Shown here: positions 4,667 through 56,093 of the stretch, piece by piece
How positions within the stretch are numbered: position 1 is the first letter of the stretch
Layout of the letters: each line of letters starts with the position of its first letter
Assembly: GCA_016180645.1 (NCBI GenBank)
Contig: JACPAV010000005.1
Span: forward strand, 62,001 to 126,000
Length of the DNA: 64,000 nt
Direction: 5' to 3'
Source of the DNA: Nitrospirota bacterium
Lineage (GTDB): Bacteria; JACPQY01
The notes under the pieces: model-generated
What the model was told of the DNA's origin: nothing
The model's input: only the letters and a program-made list of their open reading frames with translations
Databases searched by the model: none
Translations under genes and position numbers: made by a program

Positions 4667-5779
4667 TCATCCGAGCCTGTACTTGACCAACACGACCCCC
4701 GCGAGGAGGAGGGTCCCCAGCCACGACCGGTATTCGCGGTTCTCGCCCAGCGCCCGTTTCATCGAGAAACGTTCGTGACACGCCGGAGCGCGCCGCAGCG
4801 GCAGGAATCCGTACACGGCCTTCCGGTAATGCCGATACGCCTGGCCGAATGCGGAAGCCATCTGTCTTTCTTCCTCCGCCGCCGCAAGCCCGTATAGCAT
4901 CGCGAACATTACCGAGAAACACGGAATCACCCAAGTTCTCCCCGAGGCGATCGAGAGCCCCAGCCCCAGGAGGAAACTCCCGACATACAGCGGGTGCCGC
5001 ACCCAGCGGTAGGGGCCCGACGTGGTGAGCGCCGTCCGTTTGCGCAAGTATCCTCCGGCCCAGATCCGAATGGCGTGGCCCAAAAGCACCAAGACAACTG
5101 CCGCCGTCAAGTGCACTTTCTCGGGTTTCGCCGTGACGGCCACAAGCATGAGGAAAACATTTCCGATAGCCACCCGTTTCCGCACAAGAAACGAACTGAA
5201 GGACGCACCCGTAAAGGGTGCGGCTACCTTCCCAAGCGCGGACGACGCCAGCGGGTAGGCGCAGGCTTCAGCCTGCGTCCGAGGCGCGGCACCCATCTTC
5301 TCCTCCCCGGAGCCGAGGGTTTTCAGCAACGCGCTGCTGGAGTGATCTTTTGGATCGCCCACGATCGCCACGCGCGCGCCGATGGCCCGATCCGTTTCCC
5401 TCTCGGGCACGTTCTCCGCCGTGTAGTCCGTTCCCTTGGCATGCACCTGGGGTCTCAAACGCCGGAGAACCCCCTCCACGTTCGCGCCTGAAAACGGCAC
5501 GACGTGGTCCACGCACGCCAAAGCGGCTATCACTTCCATCCGCTCCGCCAACGGTTGCGCCGGTCTCCCCTCGCCTTTCATCGCGCGCACGGATGGATCG
5601 TCGTTGATCGCCACAACCAGGAGATCCCCTTCGCGCTTCGCGCCCTCGAGGTACCGGACGTGTCCGACGTGGATCAGATCGAAGACGCCGTTCGCAAGAA
5701 CGACGGTCTTGCCCTCTTGCCGAGTTTGCTCGCCCACACCTCCCAAATCCTCGATCCGAAGGATCTTCTCCGAGGTCAT
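4667..5779 (-). CDS. HldE-like nucleotidyltransferase fused to ICMT-like membrane methyltransferase through a REP pair
   Basis: Residues ~1-155 are a cytidylyltransferase domain of the HldE/RfaE C-terminal type (GVFDLIHVGHVRYLEGAK with the HxGH motif), normally forming ADP-heptose for LPS. Residues ~190-345 are an isoprenylcysteine-carboxyl-methyltransferase-like (PEMT/ICMT fold) membrane domain: hydrophobic helices, GGYLRKR, TTSGPYRWVRHPLYVGSF, and a trailing EEERQMASAFG. The linker between them (about residues 165-195, containing AAPFTGAS) is encoded by a class A REP pair at 5201-5280. I therefore suspect two originally separate genes joined by repeat insertion. Each domain matches its family well; the fused product is unusual. 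Start ATG at 5779 (GTG at 5782 also possible), with another REP only a few bases upstream. Confidence 0.8.
   Translation of the reverse strand: MTSEKILRIEDLGGVGEQTRQEGKTVVLANGVFDLIHVGHVRYLEGAKREGDLLVVAINDDPSVRAMKGEGRPAQPLAERMEVIAALACVDHVVPFSGANVEGVLRRLRPQVHAKGTDYTAENVPERETDRAIGARVAIVGDPKDHSSSALLKTLGSGEEKMGAAPRTQAEACAYPLASSALGKVAAPFTGASFSSFLVRKRVAIGNVFLMLVAVTAKPEKVHLTAAVVLVLLGHAIRIWAGGYLRKRTALTTSGPYRWVRHPLYVGSFLLGLGLSIASGRTWVIPCFSVMFAMLYGLAAAEEERQMASAFGQAYRHYRKAVYGFLPLRRAPACHERFSMKRALGENREYRSWLGTLLLAGVVLVKYRLG
5201..5280. repeat. Class A REP pair inside the hldE/ICMT reading frame
   Basis: Two palindromes: one with arms CGCACCC/GGGTGCG ending CTACC (5201-5228), one beginning GTAG with arms CGCAGGC/GCCTGCG (5255-5280). 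The pair is read in frame and encodes the linker between the two domains of the surrounding gene. The spacer between palindromes is longer than in the usual doublets. Confidence 0.85.
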
Positions 5780-5786
5780 CACTGCT

Positions 5787-5845
5787 GGTAGGCGCGGGCT
5801 TTATGCCCGCGTTCGAAGAGCGCACCCGTAAAGGGTGCGGCTACC
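5787..5845. repeat. Class A REPIN upstream of the hldE/ICMT gene
   Basis: Inverted pair: GTAG at 5788, arms CGCGGGC/GCCCGCG, then CGCACCC/GGGTGCG closing with CTACC. It lies within ten bases of the start codon of the gene at 4667-5779, so it occupies the place of a ribosome-binding site or promoter. The rest of the 5846-5924 gap shows nothing I recognise. Confidence 0.9.
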
Positions 5846-11986: not shown

Positions 11987-12197
11987 CACGCGGGCTGAAG
12001 CCCCATGCCACGGAGGGTATGGGACCATGATATGTCGCCGCACCACGGATGGTGCGGCATGGAACATGGCCCGCGCCTACCAAGGAGCCATTCCTCCGGT
12101 AGCCGCACCCCCATGCCAAGGACGGCATGGGGCCATGAAATGTCGCCGCGCCACGGATGGCACGGCATGTAACATGGCCTTTAGGGTGCGTCTTCGG
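11987..12197. repeat. Two REPs each split by a 68-base palindromic element
   Basis: Two class A REP palindromes are interrupted at their centres. The first runs ACGCGGGCTGAAG (to 12000), then an insert to 12069, then CCCGCGCCTACC. The second runs GTAGCCGCACCC (from 12099), an insert to about 12178, then TTTAGGGTGCGTC. The inserts share a 68-base core (12002-12069 and 12110-12177) that aligns without gaps. Each holds two hairpins: CCCATGCC with GGTATGGG/GGCATGGG, and GCCGC-type arms around a CGGA loop. This is the whole content of the gap between the selenoprotein and pgsA. Confidence 0.85.
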
Positions 12198-38715: not shown

Positions 38716-40281
38716 TTATAGATCCCAGCTCAGAACCGGGTAGCGATTCGCAAGAACCTCGTTCACCCGGCCGCACGGCGTCGTGTGAGGCGCCGCCCGA
38801 ACCCGGTCGGGGTCTTCCTGGATTTCATTCGCAATCAGGTTCATCGAGTGCGCGAACCGGTCGAGCGTGGCTTTGCTCTCGCTCTCCGTCGGCTCGATCA
38901 TCATCGCGCCGGGAACGACGAGTGGGAAATAGATCGTGGGCGGATGGAACCCGAAGTCGATGATCCGTTTGGCGATATCCAGCGTCGAAACCTGCGCCTG
39001 TTTCTGAAACCGGTCCGAGGCGATGAACTCGTGCATGCAGGTATCCTCGTAGGGCACGTGGTACCGATCCTTCATCCTTTGCTTTAGATAGTTTGCATTA
39101 AGGACGGCTCTTTCCGATATTTCCTTCAGACCCTCAGACCCATTGCTGAGGATATAAACGTAGGCCCGGACGAGGATCATGAAATTGCCGTAGAACGACC
39201 GGACCCGTCCCACCGAATCGGGCAGGCCGAAATTGAGCGAGTACCGCCCCTCTTTGAGCTGGATCCTGGGGACGGGCAGGTACGGGGAGAGCTTGTTTTT
39301 CACTCCCACCGGTCCCGCGCCCGGTCCACCCCCGCCGTGGGGCGTGGAGAAAGTCTTGTGGAGGTTGAACTGAATGACGTCGAAGCCGAGATCGCCTGGC
39401 CGCGCTTTCCCCAGAATCGCGTTCAGGTTCGCGCCGTCACCGTACACGAACCCGCCCTTCTCATGCACGATTTCGGCCACTTTCAGGATCTCCTTCTCGA
39501 ACAGGCCCAGGGTGTTCGGGTTGGTGATCATGATCGCAGCCACTTTGTCGTCCACCACCTTGCGCAGGACCTTGGGATCGATCATTCCCCCGTTGGATTT
39601 GAACTCCTGGGCCTCGAATCCGGACATGCTCGCGCTCGCCGGGTTCGTGCCGTGGGCCGTGTCCGGCAGCAGGACTTTCGTCCGCTTCTCCCCCTTCTTT
39701 TCAAAATATCGCGCAATCAGTTTCAGGCCCAGAAACTCTCCATGCGCGCCGGCGCTGGGCTGGAGCGTCACCTGATCCATCCCGCTCACTTCCTGAAGAT
39801 ACTTTTCCAAGTCGAACATCAATCGGAGTGCGCCCTGCACGCGCGATTCGGGCCAGTAGGGATGCAGTCCGGCCAACCCGCGGCGGGACGCGATGGATTC
39901 GCAGATTTTCGGGTTGTACTTCATTGTGCACGAGCCGAGCGGGTACATGCCCGTGTCCACCGAGAAGTTCAGCTTGGAGAGGCGGGTAAAATGGCGCACG
40001 ACCTCCGACTCCGCCAATTCCGGAAGACACGCCGGCTCTTTGCGCAGAAGATCGTCCGGAATCGGATCGACTTTTCCGGAAACGGCGGTCTTCGGAAGAA
40101 GCGTGCCGCGGTGACCTGCACGGGACATCTCGAACAGCGTCGGCTCGATGCCCGGCTGGGACAGCGAATCATTCTTTCGCGGCTCTTCCGCTCCCGGCTT
40201 CGGCGTAAGGACGCTCACCCCACCACCTGTCTGAGATTTGAGATCTGAGATTTGAGATTTCAGAGGCGGTGGCGGGGTCAT
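38716..40281 (-). CDS. gcvPB: Glycine dehydrogenase (decarboxylating) subunit 2
   Basis: PLP-binding half of the split glycine decarboxylase. 521 residues with YPLGSCTMKYNPKI, the PLP-lysine region FNLHKTFSTPHGGGGPG, GTNPASASM and EPTESESKATLDRF. The N-terminal ~25 residues (LKSQISDLKSQ) come from a short tandem repeat and are not part of the family. The ATGA overlap with gcvPA fixes the start. It is the last gene of the gcvT-H-PA-PB operon. Confidence 0.95.
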   Translation of the reverse strand: MTPPPPLKSQISDLKSQTGGGVSVLTPKPGAEEPRKNDSLSQPGIEPTLFEMSRAGHRGTLLPKTAVSGKVDPIPDDLLRKEPACLPELAESEVVRHFTRLSKLNFSVDTGMYPLGSCTMKYNPKICESIASRRGLAGLHPYWPESRVQGALRLMFDLEKYLQEVSGMDQVTLQPSAGAHGEFLGLKLIARYFEKKGEKRTKVLLPDTAHGTNPASASMSGFEAQEFKSNGGMIDPKVLRKVVDDKVAAIMITNPNTLGLFEKEILKVAEIVHEKGGFVYGDGANLNAILGKARPGDLGFDVIQFNLHKTFSTPHGGGGPGAGPVGVKNKLSPYLPVPRIQLKEGRYSLNFGLPDSVGRVRSFYGNFMILVRAYVYILSNGSEGLKEISERAVLNANYLKQRMKDRYHVPYEDTCMHEFIASDRFQKQAQVSTLDIAKRIIDFGFHPPTIYFPLVVPGAMMIEPTESESKATLDRFAHSMNLIANEIQEDPDRVRAAPHTTPCGRVNEVLANRYPVLSWDL

Positions 40282-41609
40282 CGCGCTCCCCCCAGGAGAT
40301 TCGCCGCCGCTTCGATTCCCTCCGCCGATGATTTTTCAGTGGCGCACATCAGCAGGGCATCCTGCAATTCGGGATAGTATTTCCCCAGTGGGAGGCCGGG
40401 GACGATCCCGGCCGCTTCCGCATCCTCCATCACATCGCGAACAGGTCGACGCGGTTTCACCACAAACTCATTGAAGTACGGCCCGTTGAACACGGCCGCC
40501 GCCCCGCCTTTCCGGGTCACTGCAGCTCGAAGAGCCGAGGCCATGCGGTGGTTCAGCTCCGCCAGCTCACGGAGCCCATGGGGTCCCAGCAGCGCGAGAT
40601 GGACCGTCGCCGCGATGGCGCACAGCGTTTGGTTCGTGCAGATGTTGGACGTGGCACGCGCCCGGCGGATGTGCTGTTCCCTCGTGGCCAGCGTGATCAC
40701 AAAAGCTCTCTTCCCTGTCTTGTCGATCGACGCGCCGATGAGGCGGCCGGGCATGTCGCGCACAAACTCCTTGCGTGTTCCGAGGAAACCCACGTAGGGG
40801 CCTCCGAAAGAGAGGGGAAGCCCCAGCCCCGCGGCCTCTCCGGCCACCGCGTCCGCTCCGCATTCGCCCGGGGACCGGAGCATGCCCAGACTGACCGGCT
40901 CGTTCACCACGGTAACGAGCAGTGCCTTCCGGTTTCCGATCAAGGCCTTGATCTTTTCGAGACGTTCGACAACTCCGAAGAAATTGGGGGATTGGACGAC
41001 CACGCAGGCCGTGTCGTCCGACAAGGCCTTGGTGATCGCCTCGAGATCCACGGAGCCGCTTTCTGTCCACCCCACCTCCGTCAAGCCGCCGCCGAGATAG
41101 GTCCGTATGACCTCGCGGTATTCAGGATGCACGGACCTCGCCACGATCACTTTTTCCTTTCTCGAGGCCCGCCGCGCCAGGAGTACCGCCTCCGCCGCCG
41201 CAGAGGCACCCTCATATAATGAAGCATTCGCGAGGTCGGTCCCCAGAAGCCTTCTCATCATCGTTTGAAACTCGAAAAGCGCCTCCAACGTGCCTTGGCT
41301 CACCTCGGGCTGATACGGGGTGTAGGCGGTGTAGAACTCGGATCGCCCAATGATGGCATTCACAACGGAGGGAATGAAATGATCGTAGGCGCCGGCGCCG
41401 AGGAAATGATGCGCGGGTGGCCGATTCTGCGCCTCGATCGCGTCGAAATGGGCCTCCATCTCTTGTTCGGACAGCGGGCCGGGCACGAGCAGGGGCTTGG
41501 ACAGCCGCGCCTCCTTCGGGATGACCGTAAAGAGTTCGTCAATGGACTTGACGCCGATGGCGGCCAGCATCTCCTCCGTCTCGGAGGGACTGGAAGGGAT
41601 GAATCTCAT
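40278..41609 (-). CDS. gcvPA: Glycine dehydrogenase (decarboxylating) subunit 1
   Basis: 443 residues with FIPSSPSETEEMLAAIGVKSIDELF, PHHFLGAGAYDHFIPSVV, YTPYQPEVSQGTLEALFEFQ, DLANASLYEGASAAAEA and ATSNICTNQTLCA, all GcvPA signatures. The ATG at 41609 is the family start; the frame upstream reads through REP sequence (VGAPFRVRH) and is not genuine. A REP ends nine bases before the start. Confidence 0.95.
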   Translation of the reverse strand: MRFIPSSPSETEEMLAAIGVKSIDELFTVIPKEARLSKPLLVPGPLSEQEMEAHFDAIEAQNRPPAHHFLGAGAYDHFIPSVVNAIIGRSEFYTAYTPYQPEVSQGTLEALFEFQTMMRRLLGTDLANASLYEGASAAAEAVLLARRASRKEKVIVARSVHPEYREVIRTYLGGGLTEVGWTESGSVDLEAITKALSDDTACVVVQSPNFFGVVERLEKIKALIGNRKALLVTVVNEPVSLGMLRSPGECGADAVAGEAAGLGLPLSFGGPYVGFLGTRKEFVRDMPGRLIGASIDKTGKRAFVITLATREQHIRRARATSNICTNQTLCAIAATVHLALLGPHGLRELAELNHRMASALRAAVTRKGGAAAVFNGPYFNEFVVKPRRPVRDVMEDAEAAGIVPGLPLGKYYPELQDALLMCATEKSSAEGIEAAANLLGGAR

Positions 41610-41617
41610 TCGAACAT

Positions 41618-41688
41618 GACGCACCCTAAAGGGTGCGCCTACCAGGAATTCCTTTGTTCCCGGGTAGCCGCAGGCTTCAGCCTGCGTG
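41618..41688. repeat. Class A REP pair between gcvPA and gcvH
   Basis: Unit 41618-41643 (CGCACCC/GGGTGCG, CTACC) and unit 41662-41688 (GTAG, CGCAGGC/GCCTGCG), facing each other. They lie inside the gcv operon, between two co-transcribed genes. Confidence 0.9.
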
Positions 41689-41733
41689 CCCCGCATTGGC
41701 CACGGATGACTGACCCCCGACCCCTTCCGCGGA

Positions 41734-42171
41734 TCACTCCTCCTCCCCTTCGCCTTTCTCGATCTCCTCCTCAACAAATGCGGCGTACTCCACCGAATTC
41801 ATCAGCTCATCCAGTTCCGCGGCATCGCCCAGCGAAATCTTGATGAGCCAGCCGTCGCCATACGGGTCCTGATTGAGCAGGTCGGGCGTCTCTTTCACAT
41901 CCAGATTGACTTCCACCACCTTGCCGCTCACGGGAGCGTAGAGATCGGACACCGACTTCACCGATTCCACGAACCCAAACGACTCGCCCTTCAGGACTTC
42001 CTCGCCCTCTTCCGGAAGCTCCACGTAAACGATATCGCCCAGGGCATCCTGCGCGTAGTCGCTGATCCCGACGGTCACGATGCCGTCGTCCTCCTTGCGG
42101 CCCCATTCGTGCTCCCTCGTGTACTTCAAGTCCTCGGGGAATTCGAAGCCGGTTCCTTTTTTCTTCTTCAT
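41734..42171 (-). CDS. gcvH: Glycine cleavage system H protein
   Basis: Lipoyl carrier of the glycine cleavage system. 145 residues with REHEWGRKEDDGIVTVGISDYAQDALGDIVYVELP, split here only for naming, and the lipoyl-lysine motif GFVESVKSVSDLYAP. NQDPYGDGWLIKI follows. The acidic tail (EEEIEKGEGEEE) is longer than usual. Sixteen bases downstream of gcvT. Confidence 0.96.
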   Translation of the reverse strand: MKKKKGTGFEFPEDLKYTREHEWGRKEDDGIVTVGISDYAQDALGDIVYVELPEEGEEVLKGESFGFVESVKSVSDLYAPVSGKVVEVNLDVKETPDLLNQDPYGDGWLIKISLGDAAELDELMNSVEYAAFVEEEIEKGEGEEE

Positions 42172-42186: not shown

Positions 42187-43569
42187 CTACGCTTTCTTCG
42201 TTCCGGGCGTCACGAAGGGTACTTTCGCGATTTCGGCTTCGACCTCTTTGGCCCGGATGCGGATGCGAATGTGTGCGCCCTCCCAACCGGATCGGGTAGC
42301 CGCAGGCTTCATGCCTGCGTCCTGCCCCATCCCGGGAGCCGCGGGCTTTACGCCCGCGTCCGAAGACGCACCCGTAAAGGGTGCGCCTACCGGCGAGCTC
42401 GTCAGGAGGGCCAGTCCGATCGATCGCTTGAGGACCGGCGAGAAGCATCCGCTGGTGATCAGGCCGATCGCCGTCGAGGGCGATCCCGTCGCTACCTCAT
42501 AGTGATCGCGAATCATACCGTCCTTTTTGAGGGCGACACCGCACAGCTTCGCCGGCGGCTTCTCCGCCCTCTTTTGAATGGCCTGCTTACCCACAAACGA
42601 TTCCTTTTTCAAGTCAACAAATCGAAGCAGTCCCGCCTCGACCGGACCGATCTCCTTTGAAATCTCATGACCGTAGAGCGGATAGCCCATTTCGATGCGG
42701 AGGCTGTCGCGCGCGCCGAGACCGATGGGCGCGAGTCCCTGCGGCTTGCCGGCCTTGAGTAGCGCATCCCACAGCGGCTCCGCCACTCCATCCGGCAGAT
42801 AGAGTTCGTAGCCATCCTCGCCGGTGTAGCCGGTCCGGGTGACCAGAATGCTCTCGCCTTTCCAATCCACTGTGGCGCAACCGAAATACTTCAGGCCGGT
42901 GGCGATCGGGCCCAGCACGCTGCCGACAATCGCAGCCGCATGGGGCCCCTGCACGGCGAGCTGAGCCGTCACATCGCTGAGATCTTTCAGCGCCACAGCT
43001 CCATTCAGGCTCCCGGTAGCCGCAGGCTTAATGCCTGCGTCCGGTTCAATCCCGGTAGCCGCAGGCTTTAGCCTGCGCTCAAGACGCGGGCTGAAGCCCG
43101 CGCCTACCAGCCCTGCGTCCGAAGACGCACCCATCAACCCGCCGTGGCGGGTAAAGGGTGCGCCTACCGGCCCGCGTCCATAGCTGGCCGCGTGTTCCTT
43201 GAGCCATTTCCAGTCCGCCTCGCGGTTCACGGCGTTCACGCAGATGTAGTATTCCGCGTCTCCCAACTGGTAAATGATCAGGTCGTCAATCACCCCGCCC
43301 TTTTCATCGCAGAAAAGGCCGTAGAGGGCGCGGCCGGGCGTCAGCTTCTCAAGATTATTGGTGAAGAGGGATTGGAGAAGAGTGTGAGCGCCGGGGCCTT
43401 TCGCCTCGAAGCGGCCCATATGGCTGATATCGAACAGGCCCGCCTTCTGACGAACGGCGAGGTGTTCTTCGAGGATGCCCGAGTAATACACGGGCATGTC
43501 CCAGCCTGCGAAGTCGATCATTCGCGCCCCGGCCTTCCTGTGCCACGCATACAGCGGCGTTTTTCGCAT
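42187..43569 (-). CDS. gcvT: Glycine cleavage system T protein with two in-frame REP insertions
   Basis: Aminomethyltransferase that moves the methylene group to tetrahydrofolate. Family segments include LYAWHRKAGARMIDFAGW, MPVYYSGILEEHLAVR, LFDISHMGR, TRTGYTGEDGYELYLP, GLGARDSLRIEMGYPLYGHEI and GCFSPVLKRSIGLALL. At 460 residues it is about 90 longer than normal. The excess is two blocks encoded by class A REPs: one of ~55 residues after WLKEHAASYGRG (43014-43169), one of ~32 residues near the C-terminus after ALLTSS (42295-42391). Both keep the frame and both have peptides such as [13 protein letters not shown]. Removing them restores a standard GcvT, so the protein is probably still active with surface loops enlarged. 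Confidence 0.93.
   Translation of the reverse strand: MRKTPLYAWHRKAGARMIDFAGWDMPVYYSGILEEHLAVRQKAGLFDISHMGRFEAKGPGAHTLLQSLFTNNLEKLTPGRALYGLFCDEKGGVIDDLIIYQLGDAEYYICVNAVNREADWKWLKEHAASYGRGPVGAPFTRHGGLMGASSDAGLVGAGFSPRLERRLKPAATGIEPDAGIKPAATGSLNGAVALKDLSDVTAQLAVQGPHAAAIVGSVLGPIATGLKYFGCATVDWKGESILVTRTGYTGEDGYELYLPDGVAEPLWDALLKAGKPQGLAPIGLGARDSLRIEMGYPLYGHEISKEIGPVEAGLLRFVDLKKESFVGKQAIQKRAEKPPAKLCGVALKKDGMIRDHYEVATGSPSTAIGLITSGCFSPVLKRSIGLALLTSSPVGAPFTGASSDAGVKPAAPGMGQDAGMKPAATRSGWEGAHIRIRIRAKEVEAEIAKVPFVTPGTKKA
42295..42391. repeat. Three class A REPs inside gcvT (C-terminal insertion)
   Basis: Units at 42295-42322 (CGCAGGC/GCCTGCG), 42335-42361 (CGCGGGC/GCCCGCG, foot GGAG instead of GTAG) and 42365-42391 (CGCACCC/GGGTGCG, CTACC). 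Read in frame by gcvT. Confidence 0.9.
43014..43169. repeat. Four class A REPs inside gcvT (central insertion), one carrying a nested palindrome
   Basis: Units at 43014-43042, 43053-43079, 43083-43108 and 43124-43167. The last is split at its centre by 18 bases (43135-43152) holding the perfect palindrome ACCCGCC-GT-GGCGGGT. Because 18 is a multiple of three the gcvT frame survives. Confidence 0.9.
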
Positions 43570-43642: not shown

Positions 43643-43700
43643 CGGTAGCCGCAGGCTTTAGCCTGCGTCCGAAGACACACCCATAAAGGGTGCGCCTACC
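43643..43700. repeat. Class A REPIN upstream of the RAYT gene
   Basis: GTAG, CGCAGGC/GCCTGCG, short spacer, CGCACCC/GGGTGCG, CTACC (one arm has an A for G). Thirty bases before the RAYT start codon. Confidence 0.92.
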
Positions 43701-43730: not shown

Positions 43731-44204
43731 GTGCGGAGGATACGGGAGCGGAAACATCGCCTACCTCCGGATTCCTACCGCGGACAGGCGGCAGCCAGCT
43801 TCACCCTCTGTATCCAAGATCGCCGATCTATTTTCAACAATCCATTCCCCGTTCCGCGATTCGTGGACATCCTCATGAATTCGCTGCAGAGGCATCTGTG
43901 CGATTCACCAGTGTACCTTTTCATGCCGGACCACATGCATCTGGTGCTCCAGGGAACCTCCGCGCAGTCTGACCTCCGGCAGTGCGTGGTCAGTTTCAAA
44001 CAAGCAAGCGGATTCTGGTTCAGACGAGAGATGGCTGGGATCCGGTGGCAAAAAGACTTCTACGACCACATCCTTCGAAAAGATGAAGATTTGGTGAAAC
44101 ACCTGCGTTATGTCCTCGACAATCCAGTGCGCAAGGGGCTCGTGACGGATTGGAGGGCCTATCCGTTCAAGGGTTCAACGGTTTTCGATCTTGACTCTTG
44201 GTAG
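43731..44204 (+). CDS. REP-associated tyrosine transposase (RAYT, Y1/HUH family)
   Basis: 157 residues of the transposase IS200-like (Y1_Tnp) family: FTLCIQDRRSIFN, the HUH metal site in LFMPDHMHLVLQG, and the C-terminal block WQKDFYDHILRKDEDL with the candidate catalytic tyrosine, then YVLDNPVRKGLV. Proteins of this type in E. coli and Pseudomonas cut single-stranded REPs next to a GTAG tetranucleotide. Here the gene lies exactly between two class A REP units, and its stop codon TAG (44202-44204) is the TAG of the right-hand unit's GTAG. The GTG start at 43731 has TACAAT ending six bases before it (leaderless). It is the likely source of the class A repeats. Confidence 0.92.
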   Translation: MRRIRERKHRLPPDSYRGQAAASFTLCIQDRRSIFNNPFPVPRFVDILMNSLQRHLCDSPVYLFMPDHMHLVLQGTSAQSDLRQCVVSFKQASGFWFRREMAGIRWQKDFYDHILRKDEDLVKHLRYVLDNPVRKGLVTDWRAYPFKGSTVFDLDSW

Positions 44205-44255
44205 TCGCAGGCTTTATGCCTGCGTCCAAGACGCGGGCTGAAGCCCGCGCCTACC
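44201..44255. repeat. Class A REPIN overlapping the RAYT stop codon
   Basis: GTAG at 44201, arms CGCAGGC/GCCTGCG around TTTAT, then CGCGGGC/GCCCGCG and CTACC. It ends about 20 bases before the stop codon of the convergent lipoprotein gene. Confidence 0.92.
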
Positions 44256-44276: not shown

Positions 44277-47200
44277 TCAGGGTAAATTTATGACGGGGAC
44301 GGGGGTGGATTTGTTCGCGGTGGTTCCGTCCCCAAGCTGACCGAAGACATTGTACCCCCAGCATTTGACGGTGCCGTCCGACTCGAGGGCGCAGGTGTGG
44401 GAGTTGCCGTTGGTCACGGCCACGGCCCCCGTGAGGGTGGATACCGATACCGGCGTCAGCCTGTTTGCCGTCGCACCATCACCAATTGCGCCGGACCCGC
44501 CGCTCCCCCAACACTTGACCGTGCCGTCCGACAGCAGCGCACAGGTGTGGTAGCCGCGTCCTGTGATGGAGACCGCATTCGTGAGACTGGTTACCGCGAC
44601 GGGTACCGACGAGTCTGTTCCGGTCCCATCGCCCAGCTTGCCGCCGGAATTCGCACCCCAGCAACGAGCTGTGCCGTCGTTGAGGAGGGCGCAACTGTGC
44701 ATGCCGCCGCCGGAGATCGAGACGGCGCCCGTCAGCGTGGAAACGGCCACGGGTGTGCTCTTGTTTGTGCTCGTTCCATCCCCCAGAACGCCATATCCGC
44801 CCCACCCCCAGCACCAAGCCGAGCCATCGGAGAGGACTGCGCAGGTGTGGCTGTCGCCGAGGGCGGTGGCGATGACGCCGGTCAGCGTGGAAACGGCCAC
44901 GGGCGCGCCGCGATTTGTTGTGGTTCCATCTCCCACCTGCCCCTGGCCATTTTCGCCCCAGCAGGCGACGGTGCCGTCGGTCACCATGGCGCAGGTGTGC
45001 GTGTGGAGGGCGGCCACGGTCACGGCGTTAGAAAGGACGGAAACGGTTGTAGGAGTCGGTCTGGGCGTGAACGATCCATCGCCGAGTTGGCCGTAGGAGT
45101 TGCTCCCCCAACATTTGATCGTCCCATTCGAGAGAAGGGCACACGTATGGTACGTCCCTTCGGCGAGGGCGGTGGCGTTCGTCAGGCCGGAGACGGGTAC
45201 CGGAGCGGTCCGATCCGTCGTGGTGCCGTCGCCGAGTTGGGAGGAATCGTTCTTGCCCCAGCACTTCGCGGTCCCATCCGAGAGCAGCGCACAGACGTGA
45301 TCGCGCCCAGCGGAGAGGCCTTCGCGGAAGGGGCGGGCGGGGGCGCCGGAGGCGGTGGATTCGTGGAGGCGGGGGAGTTTCACGCCCATCGGACCGGCGG
45401 GCATGGAGACGGCCACGGGCGTCGTCTTATCCACCGTCGTCCCGTCCCCAAGCTGACCGTAGTTAGAGCGCCCCCAGCATTTCACCGTGCCGTCGGAGAG
45501 GAGGGAACAGGTGTGAGCCCAGCCCCCCGACACGGCCACACCATACGAGAGGCCGCTTACGGTCACAGGGGTCGATTTGTCCGCCGTCGTCCCGTCCCCA
45601 AGCTGACCGTAGCCATTGTACCCCCAGCATTTGACCGTGCCGTCGGAGAGGAGGGAACAAGTGTGAGAGGCGCCCCCCGTGACGGCGACGGCGCCCGTGA
45701 GGGTGGAGATGGCCACGGGGGTCGATTTGTCCGCCGTCGTCCCGTCCCCAAGCTGACCGTTGCTATTGGACCCCCAGCATTTCATCGTGCCGTCGGAAAG
45801 AAGGGAACAGGTGTGACCGTCGCCCCCCGCCACGGCTACAGCCGTGCTCAGCACGGACACAGCGACCGGTATCGATTTGTTCGCCGTCGTACCATCCCCA
45901 AGCTGACCGACGTTATTCCACCCCCAGCATTTCACCGTGCCGTCGGAAAGAAGGGAACAGGTGTGAGAGGTGCCCCCCGCTACAGCCACACCCCCTGAAA
46001 GTGAAGACACGGGGATGGGCGTCAGGCGATTGGCGGTCGTCCCGTCCCCAAGCTGACCGTAAAGATTGTTCCCCCAGCATTTTACCGTGCCGTCCGAAAG
46101 CAGGGAACAGGTGTGAGAGAAGCCCCCCGCGATCCCGCTGGCGCCGGAAAGGGACGCCACCGGGACAGGCGTCCACTTATCGGCGGTCGTCCCGTCCCCA
46201 AGCTGACCGTAGAGATTGTACCCCCAGCATTTCACCATCCCGTCAGAACGAAGGGAACAGATGTGAATGCCGCCCCCCGCCACGGCGACAGCACCGCTGA
46301 GCGTCGAGACGGTCACGGGAGTCGATTTATTGGCCGTCGTACCATCCCCAAGCTGACCGTTGCCGTTGTTCCCCCAGCATTTGACCGTGCCGTCGGAAAT
46401 AAGCGAACAGGTGTGGTTGCCGAGGTGGGTCGTGATCGCCTGGGCGACGCCTATGGTGGACCACGTGAGGGCGGATTTTTCGACGGTGTTGGATTCGACG
46501 TTGAGGGCTTCGTCTCGCGCGCGGACGCGATAGTAGACTTTGCTGCCGGGCGAGAGCGAGCCGTCGTTGTACGTTGTGGCGCCGGGGGAGGTCGTGAACG
46601 TCACGCTCCACGTGGTGGTGCAGTAGTTGGGCGTTGTGGCCCGGCAGATTTGGTAGACGATGTTGGCCGGCGCGCTCACGTTGTCCGACGCGGCGCTCCA
46701 CGCGAGATCCACGTTTGTTGCCGACGTGGAGGTGGCGGAGACAAGGCCGCCGAACGTGGGAGCGGACCAATCGTTCGTCCACGAGACATCCAGATTCCCG
46801 CTGACACCCTGCGTGTTGCCGGCGGAATCGGTGCAGTCTATGAAGCGGTTATAGGCCGAACCGTCCGTCGCCGCCCCCGTGATGGTGCAGAGCGAGGTGG
46901 ACGCGCAGGTATTGGCCATCGAGCCGTACACCACATCGGCCGTATCCCACCTGCAGGCGACCGCATCTCCCGCCGAGATCGAGATGTCCGTGTTCGAATC
47001 GTTGACCGTGTCGTAGAAAGGACTTCCGGAGTCGCCCTCGATGTTGGCCACCGTAAGCAGAGGAGGCGTGCTGTCCTCGGTGAACGTCACGCTGCTCGCC
47101 GAACAAGGAGAGGCGTTGCCCGCGGCATCCGTCGCCGTTGCGTAGAAAGTCGTGCTTGAATTGTCGCTGACGGTAGCCGAAAGGCCAGGCGTGTTGAACG

Positions 47201-49646
47201 CGGACGCCGTGCCGGTGGCGGCCACGGCGGAGGTACAGGAGCCGTTGGTGTAGACTTTCACCGTCGAAGACGCCTCGGCCGTACCCTTGATGGCAGGGCT
47301 GTTGTTGTTGGCCGGTGACGGGGGAGTGACGCCCAATCCGGTCGGACCCGATGGGGCGGCGATGTCGTTCGTTTTGCTTGTCGCACCGCTCTGATTGCCC
47401 GCGGCGTCGGTAGCGGTGACATAGACCGTCGCGTACAGGTTGCCTCCAATGGACAGGGCCGCGAAACTCCCGTCGGCTCCGGCGGTGCCCGATACGATCA
47501 GCGTGGTGAGAAGACCATCGGCCCAGATCTTGACGGTGGACGCAGCCTCACAGGCTGCGGCTACCCCGGAGACGGTGTCGCTTGAACCGGGGGCATTCTG
47601 AGTAACCGTCAGCTTCGCAGGGTCCGGCGCGGCGGGGGCGGTGGTATCCGCGGGGGTGCACACGTTCCCCTCGTCGGTCGAGCCATCGCAATCGTTGTCC
47701 TTCTTATCGCAGATCTCGGTGGTGGCTGCTCCCGCCACGGCATCGCACAGCGTGCCCGTGCCATCCGTCTTGCAAACGAAAGTTCCGGCCTTGGCGCACT
47801 CGCCCACGCCGGCTGAACATGCCTGCCCCTTGTTCGTGAAGTCTTCGTCGGTGTTCCCGTCGCAGTCGTTGTCGGCGCCGTCGCAGGATTCGGCGCCGGA
47901 CGCATGACGCTGGACGCAAGCAAGAACTCCATTCGAGCAAGCTTGGGTGCCTTCGGCGCACACACCCGGGCTGCCGGTGCTGCAAGAAGCAGAGGGGAGA
48001 TCCTCGTCCGTCTTCCCGTCGCAGTCGTTGTCCTTTCCGTCGCAGATCTCGGCGCTGGGGGCGGAGGGGACGGCGGAACAGCGTGTGCCCAAGCCATCCG
48101 CCTTGCAGATAACCGTTCCGCCGGCCTGGCAGGCGCCGATGCCGACCGTGCAGGGTTGGCCGAGGGAGGCACTGGTAGCCGCGGGCTTTATGCCCGCGTC
48201 CGAGGACGCACCCATAAAGGGTGCGCCTACCAAGCCTGCGTCTGAAGACGCACCCGTAAAGGGTGCGGCTACCCAGTCCTCATCCACAAGCGTGTCGCAG
48301 TCGTTGTCCTTGCCATCACAGATTTCAGCGGAAGGATTGCACGCGGACAGGACGGTGAAGGTGACGGTGGCGGGCGTCTGGTCCCGATTGCCCATGGCGT
48401 CGGAGGCGAACACCTTGAGGGAGTGTTCGCCCGACGCGGGACGCAGGACGTAGGACGCGGGGCAGGAAGTGAATTCGAAAGCATCCAGCGAGCAGCGGAA
48501 GGCACAGAAGGACTCGTTGCACGATAGAGCGAATGCGATGTCTTGTCCTGCTTGCGCCTCGCGCCTTGCGCCCAGCGCCTCCGCCGATACGAAAGTTTCC
48601 GGCGGCGTAAGATCAATCTCCTTGAGCTCGATCTTCACCGCGGCGGGAGGCGCAACGCCCGCGGCTTTGAAGTCATCAATGACTTTCGTTTCCAGCTTGG
48701 CGGCCAGGGATTCGAAAGCCTGTTGCACCTGCTCCTGCGTGGGCTTTTTGTCAGAAGCCGCATCCGAGGCGATGGCGATGGCGTCGGCCAAAGACGCAGG
48801 CGTAAAGCCTGCGCCTACCGCCTCGCTCCCAATGATCGCCGCCACCTCGGTGAGGGTGGAGACGCCGTTGCCGTCCAGATCGGGCAGCTCCACCTCGTTG
48901 AGGTCGATGGAGGTTTCTTCAATTTCAATTTGGAACAGCGGTAACCCCTCACCCCCACCCTCTCCCTCAAGGGGAGGGGGAGTGGATGGGTCACCCGTCG
49001 CAGGCGGGGGCAGCTTCATCTTGATGGTTGTCTTGACTTCGACGAGGGGAACATCCTGATGCCGGCCGGGACGCACGCGCGTGTGGATGTCGTTGGCGCC
49101 GTCGCGGGCGGATTTCTTGGGCAAAAGGAACGTTACCTCAAAAGCAAATGCAAGCTCCCCCTCACCCACGCCCTCTCCCCCAATCTGGGGGCGAGGGGAG
49201 GATTTGGTAGGCGCGGGCTTCATGCCCGCGTCCGGGGACGCACCCTGAAGGGTGCGCCTACCAGGATCTTGACGCATCGAGACACCGCGCACACCGCCAC
49301 GCACGCCTGATGCTTCCGCCCCGCGAACGCCACCGCGAACTCCGCCGACCACATCGCCGCGCACCCCGCCCCGAACGCCTCCGCGGACTCCCTCCGCTAC
49401 GATCTCTCCGTTCACTTCGATGTCCGCCACGAGGTCGTCCGCCGCGGCCACGCCGTTCAGCGCCGCCGCGATTTCGGGGGAGAGAGGAAGGGAGACGTCC
49501 AGCGGCACGCCGTCTTCGGCCGCCGCGGGCGCGGTCAGTTTCAACGCATCGCGCTGGCAGGAGGCCAGGAGGCCCGTGAGGAGTGAGGCGTGAAGAGTGA
49601 GGTGAGAGACGGAACGGAAACGAGAACCGGAACGCCTCCAAGACAT
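44277..49646 (-). CDS. Giant lipoprotein: MopE-type repeats, Ig/FN3-like region and 14 RCC1 repeats
   Basis: 1789 residues. An N-terminal signal ends in a lipobox (LLASC, Cys30). Next come [10 protein letters not shown] tandem words and a low-complexity region. Four MopE-like metal-binding motifs follow ([14 protein letters not shown] and variants, roughly residues 450-640), then Ig-like repeats ([12 protein letters not shown]) and an FN3-like domain. The C-terminal ~740 residues hold fourteen RCC1-type units with [15 protein letters not shown], the first seven CSL-type and the last seven CAL-type, separated by a linker; this suggests two seven-bladed propellers. Several class A REPs are read in frame (48173-48273, 48792-48818, 49206-49262). 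Likely surface-exposed; function unknown. Promoter with no leader and an upstream CRP-like site. Confidence 0.88.
48173..48273. repeat. Class A REPs inside the giant lipoprotein gene (MopE region)
   Basis: Units at 48173-48201 (CGCGGGC/GCCCGCG), 48205-48231 and 48248-48273 (CGCACCC/GGGTGCG, CTACC). Read in frame; peptide words are [12 protein letters not shown] and [13 protein letters not shown]. They interrupt a spacer between two Cys-rich motifs. Confidence 0.9.
48792..48818. repeat. Single class A REP inside the giant lipoprotein gene
   Basis: GACGCAGGC, GTAAA, GCCTGCG, CCTACC; read in frame as VGAGFTPAS. Confidence 0.85.
49206..49262. repeat. Class A REPIN inside the giant lipoprotein gene (N-terminal region)
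   Basis: GTAG at 49207, CGCGGGC/GCCCGCG, then CGCACCC/GGGTGCG and CTACC; read in frame. Next to it, at about 48950-48985 and 49150-49195, lie CCTCACCC/CTCTCCC-rich words that are also read in frame. Confidence 0.88.
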
Positions 49647-55786: not shown

Positions 55787-56093
55787 GACGCGGGCTAAAG
55801 CCCGCGCCTACCAAGAACTCTCGCGTCCCGGTAGCCGCAGGCTTTAGCCTGCGTCCGAAGACGCACCCATAAAGGGTGCGCCTACCAGAAAATGGTTCAA
55901 TCCCTCTTGGTAGCCGCAGGCTTCAGCCTGCGTCCGAAGACGCACCCATAAAGGGTGCGCCTACCAGAAAATGGTTCAATCCCTCTTGGTAGCCGCAGGC
56001 TTTAGCCTGCGTCCGAAGACGCACCCATAAAGGGTGCGCCTACCCAATAAGGGTTCATCCCTCCTTGGTAGCCGCAGGCTTTAGCCTGCGTCC
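55787..56093. repeat. Tandem class A REPIN array, 79-base period
   Basis: GTAG feet at 55831, 55910, 55989 and 56068 are exactly 79 bases apart. Each of the first three units is a full REPIN (CGCAGGC/GCCTGCG then CGCACCC/GGGTGCG and CTACC) followed by a ~22-base spacer. The first two spacers are identical and the third has diverged; the fourth unit is a half. One extra unit precedes at 55787-55812. This is essentially all that lies between dctM and the metK promoter. Confidence 0.93.

Follow-up and report, generated by a model that had tools for sequence, protein, structure and literature searches.

Two clusters of GTAG-tagged REP elements carried in frame within the single-copy glycine cleavage T-protein gene of a Nitrospirota bacterium

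The gene for the glycine cleavage T-protein (aminomethyltransferase), gcvT, which occupies 42187..43569 on the minus strand of the window (the whole 64,000-nucleotide stretch of DNA analysed here), encodes a product of 460 amino acids whose reading frame passes through two clusters of “REP” elements. There is a strong probability that this arrangement is explained as follows. Two REPIN-type elements, which are inverted pairs of GTAG-tagged REPs moved by a REP-associated tyrosine transposase (RAYT), would have entered gcvT at two surface loops, where they would have persisted because they were near-neutral, and the clusters would then have been lengthened by multiples of three bases, through duplication of 39-42 bp units and through a nested palindrome. 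The head-to-head dimer, which usually has 58 bp, offers the same open frame on either strand, and the small-residue, low-charge, cysteine-free peptide which this frame encodes would be carried by the folded enzyme as a disordered loop.

The assignment of the gene is given by curated family scores together with the predicted fold. The product scores 391.7 bits against PRK00389 (cut-off 300) and 328.2 bits against TIGR00528 (cut-off 235.85) in NCBIfam, and both the GCV_T and the GCV_T_C domains of Pfam are present. When a second gcvT was sought genome-wide, the sole further GCV_T match was a distant YgfZ-like protein with 27% identity, so that the possibility of another intact copy elsewhere in the genome was rejected, in agreement with the proposal of the initial annotation that a single-copy housekeeping gene had received in-frame insertions. 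The remaining genes gcvH (41734..42171, minus strand; TIGR00527, 169 bits), gcvPA (40278..41777, minus strand; NF001696, 578 bits, with the match starting at residue 57 and the N-terminal extension of the open reading frame probably untranslated) and gcvPB are intact and adjoin gcvT.

The open frame runs along 42187-43569 without a stop or a frameshift, and the two REP clusters are found where the initial annotation had placed them; its further claims, that the clusters are read through and that they interrupt conserved GcvT sequence, also hold, since the conserved sequence that precedes and follows each cluster is in one frame with it. The first insert (43015..43167, minus strand) encodes V135-T185, or 51 amino acids, between the helix at residues 113-127 and the strand at residues 193-196, and sequence and fold identify within it a REP (43111..43172, minus strand) with a second palindrome (CCCGCCACGGCGGG) nested in its loop, which is larger for that reason. 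The second insert (42295..42390, minus strand) encodes V394-T425, or 32 amino acids, between two strands of the C-terminal barrel. Together the inserts add 83 residues, slightly fewer than the roughly 90 originally estimated, and the protein without them would have 377 amino acids, as compared to 352-376 in relatives. The Pfam and NCBIfam profile matches are interrupted between approximately residues 129 and 190, which is the position of the first insert, as are the sequence matches to the PDB, and the match to the C-terminal barrel is stretched over the second insert. An AlphaFold2 model computed from a 28-sequence alignment (this GcvT and 27 homologues, one of them from the other genome of the phylum that was compared and the rest from 26 further genomes) has a mean pLDDT of 84 and a pLDDT of about 95 over the GcvT fold, with values below 50 confined to residues 134-189 and 402-422, so both inserts are predicted to be disordered loops. 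The best Foldseek matches of the model in the PDB are all T-proteins, those of B. subtilis, T. maritima, P. horikoshii and E. coli, and the top five have target TM scores of 0.86-0.95.

In all 27 aligned relatives, no insert-like residues beyond a few were found at either site. The empty sites that had been anticipated are therefore present, and the notion that the inserts are ancient, diverged loops common to relatives was rejected. The comparison within the phylum involves two genomes, the present one and JACPQY010000075.1 (“Nitrospirae bacterium”, from groundwater; recognized by a GcvT of identical sequence), which belongs to the same family and in which gcvT is directly followed by gcvH and both inserts are absent; this second genome carries the same REP pattern, with 22 matches. 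Empty sites were compared at the protein level, at which the nearest relative has 59% identity. For an exact empty site in DNA, paralogues were compared, but what they showed in the corresponding position was a lengthened cluster and a degenerate REP. The absence of the inserts from the related genome and from the rest of the alignment means that they were either gained after the split or lost in the relative, and sequence comparison favours as the simpler reading that they were gained in this lineage after its split from the JACPQY010000075.1 genome.

The repeats themselves have the features of the GTAG REP superfamily. Each unit consists of GGTAG-N followed by a perfect 7-bp stem with a loop of 4-5 bases, which agrees with the superfamily pattern of a GTAG at one end, a stem of 5-13 bp and a loop of 2-20 bases. 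A strict scan detected 39 sites in the window, compared to 1 in a reversed-sequence control, and when it was applied to 380 kb taken from this genome without selection it detected 17 sites, again compared to 1 in the control; a tight pattern of 25 bases matched at 85 places genome-wide and at 1 in the control. One weak scan match, at 47541 (GVAAACEAA), was dropped as not being a REP. The elements occur in many copies, as singles and as dimers of both kinds, and the 99 unique clusters, most of which were sampled with one 25-base pattern that favours 25-base units, include 36 head-to-head pairs (GTAG outside) and 21 tail-to-tail pairs. The commonest length of the head-to-head pairs is 58 bp (18 of 36), and these pairs are inverted REP doublets forming a repeated unit, which is the arrangement that characterizes REPINs. 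The elements do not belong to the Rickettsia palindromic elements, being GTAG-tagged, accompanied by a RAYT and found in another phylum. Two other arrangements in the window are an array of eight alternating REPs with a period of 79 bp (55789-56090) and a repeat of a different family (11988-12192), whose arms measure about 95 bp and which recurs many times in the genome.

A further property of the superfamily, a RAYT gene between copies of the same repeats, is found next to gcvT itself. The gene (43731..44204, plus strand) is divergent from gcvT and lies about 160 bp upstream of the gcvT start; its product has the HMH motif, scores 88 bits against NF047646 (cut-off 80) and matches Y1_Tnp in Pfam. 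It has REP dimers on both flanks, a head-to-head dimer detected by the REP scan between it and gcvT (43644..43700) and another head-to-head dimer (44200..44255) which supplies the TAG stop codon of the RAYT gene at 44202-44204. The genome contains eight RAYT-like genes, two of which score above the family cut-off. The region around gcvT is a REP hotspot, with 7 of the 85 tight matches falling within 7 kb as compared to an expected 0.12, and transposition of the gcvT elements was presumably driven by a RAYT.

The initial annotation had suggested that REPs of this class possess a stop-free frame encoding a characteristic peptide. The frame and the peptide (VxAPFxGASSDAGxKPAxT) are as predicted, but there are usually two open frames per strand, of which one is used in genes. 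In a head-to-head pair one frame per strand is closed by the TAG of GTAG, and of the two other frames, frame 2 is free of stops in 31 of the 36 such pairs and frame 0 in 22. About 22 REP clusters in the genome sample are situated in long coding genes, some 14 in number, which were recognized by their open frames and by Pfam. Nearly all of these genes have Pfam domains, and they comprise those for gcvT, six RCC1-repeat proteins, a CheA kinase, a C25 peptidase, and NHL, FG-GAP and MopE-type proteins. This count excludes the N-terminal and gene-bridging cases (L069, L081, L071, L105 5882 and window 4670-5800), because the true gene starts there are uncertain, and the number of independent insertion events is smaller than the number of clusters, because the RCC1 paralogues have some sites in common. 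Antisense open reading frames over REPs, of which L080 has one of 806 amino acids, were regarded as shadows of the RCC1 gene and discounted. All of the 18 intragenic clusters in which two frames are open use frame 2, and when each protein family is counted once, this is so for 8 of 8 (p = 0.004). The exception among intragenic clusters, at 49206-49262, uses the other frame, which is the only one that it has open. Placement is also biased, with 14 of the 36 head-to-head pairs lying within genes, compared to none of the 21 tail-to-tail pairs (p = 8e-4).

The simplest reading of the frame bias is that it results from selection on the encoded peptide. The peptide of frame 2 is 66% Ala, Gly, Ser, Thr and Pro, with 7% Lys and Arg and no Cys, whereas that of the unused open frame is rich in Arg, Cys and Tyr (26% Lys and Arg, 8% Cys), which is what selection predicts. 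A preference of the transposase for targets tied to the codon phase could instead produce the bias, without any selection on the peptide, and a weak preference for C in the three bases preceding the element is consistent with this; a conserved insertion motif was nevertheless rejected, since none that is strong was found around 119 element ends, and with the composition of the unused peptide also against it, target preference is a rather unlikely source of the bias. It is possible, if somewhat doubtful, that the head-to-head pair has become, in this lineage, a protein-compatible mobile element. Its length of 58 bp, which leaves 19 full codons after the first base, would then combine with its symmetry to give the same open, disordered peptide in either orientation, so that it would travel among coding regions as a ready-made loop or linker, lengthen by whole codons, and have entered even a folded housekeeping enzyme.

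The near-neutral persistence of the inserts in gcvT may be set against the idea that they are retained for use, with hairpins in the gcv mRNA tuning its stability or translation, or with the loops mediating a contact. The folding energies of the two clusters are much lower than those of dinucleotide-shuffled sequences (z of -4.4 and -6.5), which is beyond chance, and the hairpins would be very stable in the mRNA (-63 and -106 kcal/mol), and the same operon has a further REP dimer, arranged tail-to-tail, in the gcvH-gcvPA spacer (41620..41686), which is noncoding if gcvPA begins at the putative ATG near 41609. The same elements are present, however, in unrelated proteins and spacers, the loops are predicted to be disordered, and the related genome lacks the inserts, all of which makes a retained function improbable. 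The size of the two inserts and the stability of their hairpins could also be taken to mean that the repeats have inactivated gcvT, leaving an open-framed pseudogene at an early stage of decay. There is little likelihood of this, given that the gene is the only gcvT of the genome and stands beside intact gcvH, gcvPA and gcvPB, that its frame is free of stops and frameshifts, that the fold is modelled with high confidence, and that all columns invariant among the relatives in the 28-sequence alignment are retained, including D95 and D96 in the GGxxDD region. This region presumably holds the catalytic Asp. The persistence of REPs in a gene that is essential implies that the enzyme works, and GcvT with its inserts is thus probably still functional. 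That the inserts are artefacts, produced by collapsed or misjoined repeats in a fragmented assembly of 65 contigs, several of which end within REPs, is very improbable indeed, because conserved GcvT sequence stands in frame on either side of both inserts and because misassembly would not produce in-frame REPs with one preferred frame in many other proteins.

The initial annotation had supposed that the clusters grow by repeated insertion. Growth did occur, but it was at least partly by duplication of units of 39-42 bp, which seems to account for it as much as new insertion does, and in multiples of three bases, as is indicated by a 42-bp difference between paralogues, by additions of 39 bp and by the nested palindrome in the first gcvT insert. 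Two RCC1 paralogues have a cluster at one common site, with colinear flanks, and its length is 100 bp in the window and 58 bp in the other gene; the cluster of the second gcvT insert has 97 bp (58 + 39), and one on contig L105 has 136 bp (58 and two units of 39 bp).

REPs had been described in the initial annotation as normally extragenic, which is correct for most of them, but intragenic GTAG REPs were catalogued by Di Nocera et al. 2013 (PMC3733652), and in-frame elements of Rickettsia were known earlier (reviewed in PMC2229807). The gcvT case is therefore a further instance, clear and documented unusually well, of a phenomenon already described for a few other bacteria in these articles. 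PMC3733652 reports GTAG REPs, their association with RAYTs and intragenic copies in several phyla, with some genes hit twice and the uvrA genes of Opitutus terrae as an example. The present elements resemble them in the GTAG tag, the short GC-rich stem-loop, the head-to-head dimers, the clusters, the REP-flanked RAYT, the in-frame position in conserved genes, sometimes at two sites per gene, and the frequent provision by a REP of the TAG stop of a flanking open reading frame; they differ in that this phylum is absent from the list given there and that the gene entered is gcvT, whereas repair genes are stressed there. Bertels and Rainey 2011 (PMC3116915) proposed that the unit which moves is the REPIN, made of two inverted REPs, and the unit here is likewise an inverted REP pair in a genome with a RAYT, although their REPINs were described in extragenic space, with movement seen there as excision reads, while the gcvT case is intragenic. 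The Rickettsia palindromic elements, reported in 2000 to lie in frame in conserved genes, are similar in being palindromic in-frame inserts, and a Rickettsia guanylate kinase containing one is translated and active (PMC2229807), but they are 105-146 bp long and of other sequence, whereas the gcvT elements are GTAG-tagged and accompanied by a RAYT; the CGTC-type repeats of Rickettsia are described in PMC3733652 as having no dedicated transposase.

What distinguishes the present case is the occurrence in a phylum beyond those listed and the use of a single frame in both orientations, a rule not found reported in the text consulted of PMC2229807, PMC3116915 and PMC3733652. The case is a clean example, outside the surveyed phyla, of a metabolic enzyme with a single gene copy that has been extended by mobile palindromes, and it combines empty sites in relatives, a likely transposase adjoining the gene and a genome-wide frame test. 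It makes directly testable whether the form of REP elements has been adapted to being tolerated within proteins. It is also a caution for annotators that “extragenic” repeats are able to lengthen real proteins.

Several REP-bearing genes other than gcvT show details of their own. The neighbouring gene, which encodes an RCC1-repeat surface-type protein (44277..49646, minus strand), contains in-frame REP clusters at 48174-48273, 48795-48819 and 49206-49262, and belongs to a family with such clusters whose other members are in L068, L077, L080, L093 and L104; several of these paralogues share a site for the REP pair, the Cys-Cys loop of an Ig-like domain. In L105 and L068, a loop like those that hold REPs is filled by a second family of in-frame repeats, composed of SRRGASLDAPSDSG-like units. 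The CheA kinase (L097 16104-19349) contains a REP pair in the linker that follows the Hpt domain, and has in common with L081 3688-5274 a longer composite, GEG-REP-PSPSKGxG, in which the REP pair may be nested inside another repeat. Two tail-to-tail pairs bridge genes in one open frame, one joining cytidylyltransferase-like and phospholipid/ICMT methyltransferase genes (window 4670-5800) and the other a NUDIX gene and part of IF-2B (L071 3502-4737), and each may be either a fusion or a chance overlap.
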